From a virus, in the IMG/VR virus record IMGVR_UViG_3300037247_001038, positions 1-41,818 of that record: a DNA stretch of 41,818 nt. One strand, 5' to 3'. Below are positions 31,457 through 35,395 of this stretch, piece by piece. The translations under genes were made by a program, and so were the position numbers. The notes beneath the pieces were generated by a model. It had not been told where the DNA came from. It saw only the letters and a program-made list of their open reading frames with translations, and made no database searches. Position 1 is the stretch's first letter. Every line of letters begins with the position of its first letter.

Positions 31457-31816
31457 GTGAGTAGGAAGTTCCCTTCGATGCCTGAGTGCGATGGCTGCGG
31501 CGATTGCTGCGGCCCAGTCCAAGCTAGTACGCAGGAAACCATCAAGATCGCGGCCTTCATTGCGCGGCGAGGCCTTAGGTGGAAGGAAGACGGCAATCCG
31601 CTGACTTGTGGCTTCTTCGATAACACCGAGCAGCGATGTCGCATCTATTCAGTGCGCCCTATCTCCTGCCGTATGTACGGCGTCGTCAAAGAGATGGCCT
31701 GCCCACACTACCCGCAGGCGGTACGAGTGAGCTTCCCAGCACGGGCAGCGATACGGTGCGGCGTTGCGGGCATCCGCTCGCCGCTGCTCGCCCAGAGCTT
31801 CGGGGAGGCCCCATGA
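31457..31816 (+). CDS. YkgJ-type CxxCxxCC metal-cluster protein, 119 aa
   Basis: C11DGC14GDC17C18 is the diagnostic CxxCxxCC of the YkgJ/UPF0153 family. Further conserved parts are LTCGFFDNTEQRCRIYSVRP, ISCRMYG and a final Cys-Pro-His. Members bind a zinc or Fe-S cluster; the substrate is unknown. GTG at 31457 overlaps the stop of the MKKL mini-ORF, suggesting translation re-start; ATG at 31478 is an alternative. ATGA overlap with the DUF5131 gene suggests a joint function. Confidence 0.8.
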   Translation: MSRKFPSMPECDGCGDCCGPVQASTQETIKIAAFIARRGLRWKEDGNPLTCGFFDNTEQRCRIYSVRPISCRMYGVVKEMACPHYPQAVRVSFPARAAIRCGVAGIRSPLLAQSFGEAP

Positions 31817-32829
31817 CCCACGGCACGGCCATCCCGTGGACGCACGCGCCTGGGTATAGGGGCGAGGTGTGGAATCCCGTAGTGGGATGTACCCGAGTGA
31901 GCGCAGGCTGTGATCACTGCTTCGCCTTCGCGCTGCATGACCGGCGGTACGCGGCGAACCTTGCAGCCGCTCGCACGGCTGGCTACCCGTCGTTCGGTGG
32001 GATGCTAAGGGCAGGAGACCCGCGCAGGGGCGAGGCCCTAGCGGAGGCTCGTAGCATGGGCCTCAGCATAGCCCTTCCCTTCCCACCCCAGTACGACCAG
32101 CCCTTCAGTAAGGTGCAGCTACTCCCCGGCCGCCTGGACATTCCCCTCCACTGGCGCAAGCCCCGGATGGTGTTCGTCTGCTCCATGAGCGACTTGTTCC
32201 ATGAGGAAGTGCCGGACGAGTTCATTGAGCGCGTTCTGGCGACGGCCTGGGTAGCGCGGCTTCACACCTATCTATTCCTCACCAAGCGGGCTGAGCGAAT
32301 GCGTGCCTTCTTCAGCGAGAGTTCGAAGCGCATCTACAACATCGGCATACTCGGTGAGGAGATCGCAGGGCGAGCCATGCCCTCGATGATATGGCCCCTC
32401 CCCAACGTCTGGCTGGGCGTCTCCGTGGAGAACCAGGCTACAGTCGACGAGCGCATCCCCCTGCTGCTGGACACGCCGGCGGCGGTGCGCTTCGTGAGCG
32501 CAGAGCCGCTGCTGGGGCCGGTGGACTTGGAGCCCTACATGATCGACCTCAGAGATGTCACTGACGACCTCCTGGATGCTCCCGATGGTGCCGAGGTCGA
32601 CGGCATGGAGCGCGTTGGCTCGCAGTGGTGTAGAAACAGTGGCATCGACTGGCTCATTGTGGGCGGCGAGTCCGGTCCCCACTGGCGACCGATGGAACTG
32701 GCCTGGGTAGAAAGCCTGAGGGCCCAGTGCGAGGCTGCGCGGGTGCCAATGTTCGGCAAGCAGGCCGCAGGGCCGAGGCCCGACATCGCCCTGCCTGGCC
32801 GCCTGGGAGAGAGGAGCTGGCCGCTGTGA
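31813..32829 (+). CDS. DUF5131 / phage Gp37-Gp68 family protein, 338 aa
   Basis: The N-terminal signature WNPVVGCTRVSAGCDHCFA (20-38) with three Cys, then RRYAANL, VFVCSMSDLFHEEVP, YLFLTKRAERM, WLGVSVENQ, RFVSAEPLLGPVDL, IDWLIVGGESGPHWRPME and FGKQ are hallmarks of the DUF5131 family, found widely in phages next to DNA-modification genes. The Cys triad and TIM-barrel-like strand order resemble radical-SAM enzymes, but activity is unproven. It may act in nucleotide or DNA modification. The gene is coupled to the YkgJ gene. Confidence 0.9.
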   Translation: MTHGTAIPWTHAPGYRGEVWNPVVGCTRVSAGCDHCFAFALHDRRYAANLAAARTAGYPSFGGMLRAGDPRRGEALAEARSMGLSIALPFPPQYDQPFSKVQLLPGRLDIPLHWRKPRMVFVCSMSDLFHEEVPDEFIERVLATAWVARLHTYLFLTKRAERMRAFFSESSKRIYNIGILGEEIAGRAMPSMIWPLPNVWLGVSVENQATVDERIPLLLDTPAAVRFVSAEPLLGPVDLEPYMIDLRDVTDDLLDAPDGAEVDGMERVGSQWCRNSGIDWLIVGGESGPHWRPMELAWVESLRAQCEAARVPMFGKQAAGPRPDIALPGRLGERSWPL

Positions 32830-33848: not shown

Positions 33849-34117
33849 CGGCACCGATGCCCCGTGACGGCGTGCGGGAGTGCGGGTGCCCAGCCTGGGT
33901 GCTGCCTTGCGTTCAGTTCGGCGGCCAAGTTGTCTATGTCGTCAGTAGCAAGTTCACTGGTTGGTACGAGGTACACGGGCCTACCACGATCCTAGTGGAA
34001 TCGGAAGACCCTAAGATTCGCCGACACTCAGGTTGCGAACCCACGCATAGCCGCGACTACGCCTCCGCCGAGGCCGACTTCCACCGCCACGAGAAGGAGT
34101 TGCGTGCAGGAGGATAG
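33845..34117 (+). CDS. Small Cys-containing protein, 90 aa
   Basis: GTG at 33845 overlaps the nuclease stop. RECGCPAWVLPCV and a later HSGCEPTH supply Cys/His; the middle is beta (GGQVVYVVSSKFTGWYEVHG). It overlaps the HTH gene by 14 bases. The function is unknown. Confidence 0.5.
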   Translation: MTAPMPRDGVRECGCPAWVLPCVQFGGQVVYVVSSKFTGWYEVHGPTTILVESEDPKIRRHSGCEPTHSRDYASAEADFHRHEKELRAGG

Positions 34118-34340
34118 CCAGCTGTCGCCACACTCGCGGGTGACGCCGGAGGAACGCGATGTCGTGACTCTGCTGGGGAGGGGCTGCGAGCGCTGGACAG
34201 CCGCGGCTATCCTCGAGATCAGCGAGTCCTGCCTACGCGGCCGGCTACGCAGCGCCATGAAGCGTCTAGGCTGCGCGACGACGTACCAGCTCATGTTCCT
34301 GCTGGGCCGCGAGGCTGGGGCAGCAGGGAGGCACAGGTGA
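34104..34340 (+). CDS. LuxR/GerE-type helix-turn-helix protein, 78 aa
   Basis: The sequence VTPEERDVVTLLGRGCERWT, AAAILEISESCLRGRLRSAM then KRLGCATTYQLMFLLG follows the LuxR C-terminal (sigma-70 region 4-like) HTH: LTxxExxVLxLxxxG....IA..L.IS..TV..hl...m.KLG. It lacks a receiver domain. Probably a small DNA-binding regulator. GTG start with overlap; it lies just upstream of the methyltransferase. Confidence 0.75.
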   Translation: MQEDSQLSPHSRVTPEERDVVTLLGRGCERWTAAAILEISESCLRGRLRSAMKRLGCATTYQLMFLLGREAGAAGRHR

Positions 34341-34343
34341 GCG

Positions 34344-35207
34344 ATGCGCGTAGGCTCGCTGTTCTCAGGCATCGGCGGCATCGACTTGGGCCTACAGTGG
34401 ACAGGCATGGAGATCGTCTGGCAGGTAGAGATCGATGAGTGGTGTAGACGAGTCCTCGCCCGGCACTTCCCCGACGCTGTTCGATACGGCGATGTACGAG
34501 AGATGCATTGGGAGCGGCACCACGCCGTCAATGGAAGGCGAGATCGCCGCTGCCCCAACTGCCTCGCCCCCGTTGACCTCATCTGCGGCGGCTTCCCCTG
34601 TCAGCCCGTCTCCCACGCTGGCCGGCGACTGGGTGCCGAAGACGAACGCTGGCTCTGGCCGGAGTTCATGCGAGTCATACGCGAGGTTAGGCCCCGATGG
34701 GTGCTGGTTGAGAATGTACCAGGACTCCTTTCAATTGATGATGGACGGCTCTTTGGAGGAGTGCTTAGGGACTTGGCCGAGGGCGGGTACGATGCAGAGT
34801 GGGACTGTATACCGGCGGCAGCCCTCGGTGCCCCGCACATCAGGGATCGGGTGTTCGTCGTGGCCCACGCCCGTAGCCAACGACGACAACAAGAGTCCCG
34901 AGGCGCATATGGCGATGAAGGCTCGGATGAAGGGTGGCCCCCGACACAAGCCAACGAGCCTCAATGTAGTCGTGAAGGGCGTGGAGCGGGGGATGTGGCC
35001 GACGCCGACCACGGATCGCTATTCGGGCCTTCAGTCGCACGGCAAGAATATAATCCTTGGGCAACTGAATCCGCTGTGGGTCGAGTGGCTCATGGGGTTC
35101 CCGCCAGGGTGGACAGACTTAGGGGACTCGGCAACGCCGTCGTCCCGCAAGTCGCGGAGTACATCGGGCGGCTGATCATGGACGCGGAGCGCAGGAGGGT
35201 AGCGTGA
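34344..35207 (+). CDS. DNA (cytosine-5) methyltransferase, 287 aa
   Basis: C5-MTase motifs: I FSGIGGIDLG (7-16), IV GGFPCQPVS (82-90, catalytic C86), VI VENVPG (122-127), VIII IRDRVFVVA (166-174), and IX/X WATESAVGRVAHGVPARVDR with LRGLGNAVVPQV near the C-terminus. An RRCPNC knuckle (69-73) is inserted between motifs II and IV. At 287 aa it is short, with a small target-recognition region, typical of phage orphan enzymes that protect DNA from host restriction. Uniquely, bases 34435-35175 also encode another recognisable protein in frame +1. Confidence 0.93.
   Translation: MRVGSLFSGIGGIDLGLQWTGMEIVWQVEIDEWCRRVLARHFPDAVRYGDVREMHWERHHAVNGRRDRRCPNCLAPVDLICGGFPCQPVSHAGRRLGAEDERWLWPEFMRVIREVRPRWVLVENVPGLLSIDDGRLFGGVLRDLAEGGYDAEWDCIPAAALGAPHIRDRVFVVAHARSQRRQQESRGAYGDEGSDEGWPPTQANEPQCSREGRGAGDVADADHGSLFGPSVARQEYNPWATESAVGRVAHGVPARVDRLRGLGNAVVPQVAEYIGRLIMDAERRRVA
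34435..35175 (+). CDS. Overprinted phage protein of the WPTP/LNPxWVEWLMGFP family, 246 aa
   Basis: This lies in the +1 frame wholly inside the methyltransferase gene. Motifs in order: SYARLGPDGCWLRMYQDSFQ (81-100), LGTWPRAGTMQSGTVY (111-126), TSGIGCSSWPTP (135-146), GMWPTPTTD (187-194) and LNPLWVEWLMGFPPGWTDL (211-229). I know these as the hallmarks of a phage protein family that also occurs as separate genes near Dcm-type enzymes; its function is unknown. Residues 1-75 are low-complexity Ser/Pro/Ala. The ATG has a moderate site (GGTAGAG). The frame is open for 741 bases. Shadow conservation imposed by the other frame must be excluded. Confidence 0.55.
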   Translation: MSGVDESSPGTSPTLFDTAMYERCIGSGTTPSMEGEIAAAPTASPPLTSSAAASPVSPSPTLAGDWVPKTNAGSGRSSCESYARLGPDGCWLRMYQDSFQLMMDGSLEECLGTWPRAGTMQSGTVYRRQPSVPRTSGIGCSSWPTPVANDDNKSPEAHMAMKARMKGGPRHKPTSLNVVVKGVERGMWPTPTTDRYSGLQSHGKNIILGQLNPLWVEWLMGFPPGWTDLGDSATPSSRKSRSTSGG

Positions 35208-35395
35208 GTCCACTCACCTTGCGTCAGCAGCAGGCATGGGAGCTCAGGCAGGAGGGCCTGTTCCTCAAGGAGATCGCGTTTCGCATGGGGATCAAGACCA
35301 CCACTGTCGAAAGCCACCTGGCCCGGGTGAAGCAACGGCTAAGTGAGGAGGGCAGATGGGGGATAGCTGAAAGGAGACAGAAATGGCACGAGTGA
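35204..35395 (+). CDS. LuxR/sigma-4-type helix-turn-helix protein, 63 aa
   Basis: GTG start overlapping the methyltransferase stop. LTLRQQQAWELRQEGLFLKE then IAFRMGIKTTTVESHLARVK forms a complete GerE-type HTH with recognition helix TTTVESHLARV. It is a single-domain DNA-binding protein. Together with the 34104 gene it brackets the methyltransferase. It overlaps the next gene by 13 bases. Confidence 0.75.
   Translation: MSPLTLRQQQAWELRQEGLFLKEIAFRMGIKTTTVESHLARVKQRLSEEGRWGIAERRQKWHE

Follow-up and report, generated by a model that had tools for sequence, protein, structure and literature searches.

C5-cytosine methyltransferases carry motifs I-VIII and X in a large domain and the TRD and motif IX in a small domain (PMC3404938). 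Two described enzymes distribute these elements over two polypeptides: in M.EcoHK31I, motifs I-VIII and X and the TRD belong to the large polypeptide and motif IX to the small one, and M.AquI is divided after motif VIII, the distal motifs IX and X belonging to the small subunit (PMC3404938). M.EcoHK31I, a two-polypeptide C5-methyltransferase, has the target YGGCCR. Its beta polypeptide lies in another frame within alpha. Two E. coli loci (L265 and L266) have a small frame of 176 aa in the +1 register inside a large frame of 309 aa, a layout shared with the window (here meaning the whole stretch of DNA analysed, a 41,818-base IMG/VR virus record); 309 and 176 aa are the sizes of M.EcoHK31I alpha and beta, and the two E. 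coli loci are presumably homologues. In both E. coli records, RefSeq gives only the 309-aa frame of this EcoHK31I-like methyltransferase gene, and the 176-aa +1 frame with motif IX (2775-3302 in L265 and 2775-3302 in L266) is unannotated. Both loci have a convergent neighbour gene, which the L266 record labels a NotI-family endonuclease. Matches occur in 87 of 5,426 E. coli genomes.

Overlapping methylases with both frames annotated are found in Paenibacillus phage Bloom and Escherichia phages K1G and K1ind2, the annotations in this group being either 'DNA cytosine methyltransferase' twice or 'C-specific methylase' with 'Mte8-like'. These annotations are isolated, with neither a family-wide pattern nor motif IX described in the literature searched. 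In the PHROG collection, the larger frame of the window locus (A) belongs to phrog_363 and the +1 frame inside it (B) to phrog_1008, under names that are silent on both being frames of the same DNA. The ShiLan-type HNH in an alternate frame (PMC11855218) was considered and set aside as a different insertion element. No published account of a phage-wide overlapping clade was found in the literature searched, and earlier notice elsewhere or in REBASE is possible. Two-polypeptide C5-methyltransferases were already known; the phage-wide overlapping clade is what appears to be new here.

Layout of the locus

The methyltransferase locus occupies positions 34344-35207 of the plus strand, with ORF B nested entirely within ORF A (overlap 741 bp). 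Its features are as follows.

34344..35207, +: ORF A, 287 aa, C5-cytosine methyltransferase large domain with motifs I-VIII and X (Pfam, PHROG, AF2)
34362..34379, +: motif I FSGIGG in A, 5' of the overlap (translation)
34423..34426, +: Shine-Dalgarno-like AGGT, 8 nt 5' of the B start (sequence; enrichment of start plus Shine-Dalgarno site in the family)
34435..35175, +: ORF B, 246 aa, ATG start, +1 frame in A, proposed small-domain (recognition and motif IX) subunit (phrog_1008, null tests, codon-position test on relatives)
34596..34607, +: motif IV PCQP in A (translation; PCQ invariant in the 60-row A alignment)
34710..34718, +: motif VI ENV in A (translation; invariant in the 60-row A alignment)
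34842..34850, +: RDR, the core of motif VIII, in A (translation; R167 and R169 invariant in the 60-row A alignment)
34861..34872, +: WPTP module 1 of B, VAHA in the A reading (in the 116-row B alignment, T145 is invariant, P146 nearly so)
34884..35108, +: A linker between motifs VIII and X, residues 181-255, apparently overprinted on the C-terminal part of B (AF2 pLDDT about 45-55, without secondary structure)
34996..35007, +: WPTP module 2 of B, VADA in the A reading (translation)
35065..35121, +: motif IX LNPLWVEWLMGFPPGWTDL in frame B (hhalign against single-chain C5-methyltransferases; same motif in relatives)
35124..35150, +: motif X GLGNAVVPQ in A (translation; G263, N264 and P268 invariant in the 60-row A alignment; AF2 helix 268-286 confident)

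The initial annotation reported a 741-bp double-open stretch, which is real and exceeds chance by synonymous shuffles, and motif pairs coinciding base for base, which were recovered as VAHA with WPTP at 34860-34872 and WATESAVGRVAHGVPARVDRL over LNPLWVEWLMGFPPGWTDL at 35065-35121. It also placed all C5-methyltransferase motifs, beginning with FSGIGG, in frame 0 of that stretch; this had to be corrected, as FSGIGG lies upstream of the overlap and motif IX is missing from frame 0 and present in +1. The methyltransferase pair is directly flanked by small HTH proteins resembling LuxR/GerE or sigma-70 region 4, at 34104-34340 and 35204-35395, and a DUF5131 / phrog_2045 protein of 397 aa is encoded at 31636-32829.

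Probable division of one methyltransferase between two frames

ORF A matched Pfam PF00145 at 5e-46, within residues 1-182 only, and phrog_363 at 1e-83. In its AF2 model, residues 1-176 have a pLDDT of about 95 and the motif X helix (268-286) is confident, and the 75-residue linker (181-255) is disordered where a small domain is expected. The best Foldseek matches of the model were M.HhaI and M.HaeIII over about 177 columns, with 1.5 A rmsd to M.HhaI for the best-fitting matches. Motifs I, IV, VI, VIII and X, invariant among 60 relatives, and the large-domain fold identify A as a C5-methyltransferase, and neither motif IX nor a folded small domain was found in chain A by frame typing and AF2.

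ORF B matched phrog_1008, 'DNA methyltransferase', at 7e-28, and 116/116 relatives also match this family. When the 116 B proteins were aligned by hhalign with single-chain relatives, the end of B, LNPLWVEWLMGFPPGWTDL, aligned with the canonical motif IX, VRRLTPKECEGVMGFPNGWT, at E 1.3e-4; the match to single-chain C5-methyltransferases (prob 54, 31 columns) covered the motif IX segment only. Motif IX lies just 5' of motif X in single-chain and AquI-like relatives, the same order as that of B and A. It is found ahead of X in the B frame of L157, L087 and L264, in frame 0 together with X in L261 and in L158 (RLHPAFVEWMMGLPAGW...GNGVVPQQA), and as the canonical RRLTPKECEGVMGFPNGWT in L160. Searches of PDB sequences and Pfam with B returned nothing relevant. 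AF2 modelling of B alone gave a pLDDT of 60 and a pTM of 0.26, too low for the model to be used in a fold search, and a joining of A to B by a four-letter word for AF2 was dropped, as the B alignment rows landed on A.

From the presence in B of the motif IX that A lacks, B can with high probability be identified as the small-domain subunit that completes this C5-methyltransferase, rather than as a phage protein unrelated to it. The WPTP modules and the disordered A linker suggest that the TRD of the window's enzyme probably also resides in B. Since the large domain consists of motifs I-VIII and X and the small domain of TRD and IX, the two frames cut the enzyme at its domain boundary.

M.EcoHK31I resembles the window in its partition of motifs I-VIII and X from motif IX, which is also that of 80/80 viral loci selected by A. 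In contrast, enzymes of the EcoHK31I type have a canonical TRD, SIQHASIGRKATAGPQAKGYRNDGETYTLDSRG, in A (seen in L265), where the window has a disordered linker, and the window's B is larger than the EcoHK31I-type small frame (246 aa, 741-nt overlap, WPTP modules). M.AquI differs from the window in that motif X is in its small subunit, whereas the window's motif X stays in A; the M.AquI layout is shared by the nested relatives Firecracker, Koreni and Parafrankia.

The initial annotation assigned B to a phage protein family distinct from the methyltransferase, with free-standing members. A protein of that kind, such as a regulator or an anti-restriction factor that originated by overprinting of dcm, would fit the N-terminal half of B, which is necessarily overprinted and has no relatives outside the +1 frame of methyltransferases. 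However, B carries the enzyme's own motif IX, and no free-standing B was found in the 92 loci fetched for B (80 from IMG/VR and 12 annotated phage or plasmid records), every one of which has an overlapping A. Moreover, the relatives from Firecracker, Koreni and Parafrankia, whose B frame continues into both IX and X, look like split methyltransferases. A separate protein is therefore a highly improbable identity for B. What stood of this part of the initial annotation is that two recognisable families share one DNA segment with both frames alive, in a state that is old and conserved.

Annotation of relatives

Firecracker gp5/gp6 and Koreni gp77/gp78 are annotated as split genes, and for Rctr197k_201 and FoX4 gp11 only the B frame is annotated; in all of them the B frame extends back into A, so these annotations reflect choices of gene callers. 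In GenBank, the B frame is given in place of A as '(conserved) hypothetical protein' in Virus Rctr197k (L091, 1213-1893) and in Xanthomonas phage FoX4 (L092, 1303-2028). Dual coding of about 440-850 nt is found repeatedly, in phages as well as in prophage-like loci from many phyla, but the arrangement seldom appears in annotations. Several loci depart from the common layout. The actinobacterial loci L158, L164 and L261 have IX and X in frame 0, and a B-like +1 frame with PTP modules persists, which may be an echo or a distinct state. L051 has a CACACA repeat (about 1870-1890) at a frame switch between motifs I and IV, due to either phase variation or sequencing error. L153 and L156 have motif IX in the A frame and X in a third frame, as if by one indel between TRD and IX, and are probably decayed genes.

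Chance, codon echo and selection

If A alone were the enzyme, the +1 frame might owe its openness merely to base composition together with biased codon use where the codons of A are conserved. The null model kept the A protein fixed and permuted synonymous codons inside each gene. In the window, the 246 codons of B stay open in only 0.055% of 20,000 shuffles, with 5.4 stops expected, and the +2 frame has 16 stops. Over 161 loci, which had been picked for a complete B, there are 0 stops in +1 against 659 expected, and 1,545 in +2.

A B profile was trained on half of the loci and scored on the held-out half (81 loci), where the B frames reached a median of 208 bits versus a shuffle mean of 76, and 81/81 beat all of their own shuffles. 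The window's B scored 240 bits on the family profile versus at most 113.6 for its shuffles. The 76-bit shuffle score is an echo of conserved A codons, which speaks for the sufficiency of A alone, as does the prob of 93 obtained by hhalign for +1 translations of single-chain genes versus the N-terminal half of B. Against it, B exceeds the similarity dictated by frame 0 codons in every held-out locus; the +1 stops are absent, albeit in loci picked for an open B; and A has neither motif IX nor a folded small domain. An enzyme consisting of A alone is accordingly most unlikely. Because echoes score on the B profile, matches to it were not taken by themselves as proof; the frames of motifs IX and X were typed instead, in an unbiased sample drawn with the A profile only. 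Among these A-selected loci, all viral ones (80/80) and 61/80 genome loci place IX in +1 and keep X in frame 0.

Selection was assessed in 22 independent pairs of relatives (72-97% identity), using the coincidence of A third positions with B second positions. The A third-position share of differences is 64% before B and 62% after B (bootstrap CI 0.61-0.67), 55% over motifs I-VIII (CI 0.52-0.58) and 40% over the distal overlap (CI 0.35-0.44), these shares resting on relatives, as the window's one close relative (L007/L174, a single sequence) gives too few differences for this comparison. The bootstrap intervals of the shares (outside, I-VIII, distal overlap) are separate and do not touch. The suppression of A-frame third-position change that the initial annotation proposed to look for is thus present in the overlap of these relatives, and both frames are under selection. 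A shuffle test of the A linker with B fixed was rejected as confounded by the overlap of motif X with the tail of B.

Start of B

In-frame starts with a Shine-Dalgarno site were sought in the open stretch before the B core, with expectations from A-synonymous shuffles. A site of at least 4 nt with an in-frame start occurs in 134 of 161 loci versus 72.9 expected, and one of at least 5 nt in 75 loci versus 22.9 expected. This enrichment within A favours internal initiation. The window's own site, AGGT-8 nt-ATG, is weak (4 nt).

Alternatively, programmed ribosomal frameshifting could join A (motifs I-VIII) to distal B, making one chain with motif IX and leaving plain A as a by-product; on this hypothetical reading, one +1 step near 34872 would suffice to supply I-VIII plus IX. 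However, starts with Shine-Dalgarno sites are enriched inside A, the N-terminal half of B is constrained even though the fusion would not use it (the 55% share over motifs I-VIII), and the fusion would be without motif X, which is kept in frame 0 in 80/80 viral loci. Frameshifting is therefore improbable as the source of the enzyme.

Origin of the overlap

In a tree built on motifs I-VIII, the window's clade (98/99) comprises WPTP-type loci of phages and of genomes belonging to several phyla, and nested in it are AquI-like variants and single-frame actinobacterial ones. A second clade (99/92), which includes E. coli L265, carries canonical forms of the TRD in A and of motif IX in +1; this EcoHK31I-type clade is sister to single-chain enzymes (100/99) and not to the window's clade. 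The +1 state requires two changes on the best tree, and a single clade of all +1 loci, with a p-AU of 0.114, is not rejected. Similarity between N-terminal B and the E. coli-type small subunit (hhalign prob 95.6) was rejected as evidence of homology, being an echo of A: +1 translations of single-chain genes, which contain stops, give prob 93.

The proposal of the initial annotation that B arose by overprinting of dcm holds for the N-terminal half, which appears to have been overprinted on motifs I-VIII, and fails for B as a whole, as motif IX appears to descend from a single-chain enzyme. The A linker joining motifs VIII and X seems instead to have been overprinted on the TRD and motif IX, reversing part of that proposal; VAHA, VADA and GRVAHGVPARVDRL in A would then be largely the -1 reading of the WPTP modules and motif IX. 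It is possible, and is suggested here tentatively, that a frame-overlap cut at the domain boundary arose at least twice, in the EcoHK31I type and in the ancestor of the window's clade, and was followed by reciprocal overprinting.

Proposed enzyme and significance

The locus in all likelihood encodes one phage C5-cytosine methyltransferase as two polypeptides from overlapping frames, its expression, assembly, activity and role being predicted from sequence. A would supply the large catalytic domain, in which the motif X helix closes off motifs I-VIII for SAM binding and catalysis. B, presumably started at its own ATG (34435) behind the weak Shine-Dalgarno site, would supply the small domain, comprising motif IX and, probably in the WPTP modules, the region that recognises the target. 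The two would assemble into an active enzyme that presumably shields phage DNA from host restriction. The known biochemical precedent makes the overlap directly testable.

Gene callers drop one subunit of such pairs, as where only the large frame is given for the two E. coli records in RefSeq. A methyltransferase of this clade annotated and expressed as one protein would be without motif IX and probably without target recognition. Most long overlaps on one strand are young, confined to a lineage or unproven. The present family offers reciprocal overprinting as it occurs in nature, and a single tree holds its single-chain, AquI-like and overlapping relatives; if two origins and reciprocal overprinting are true, these overlaps would be among the oldest and most widespread long gene overlaps known, both cellular and phage.
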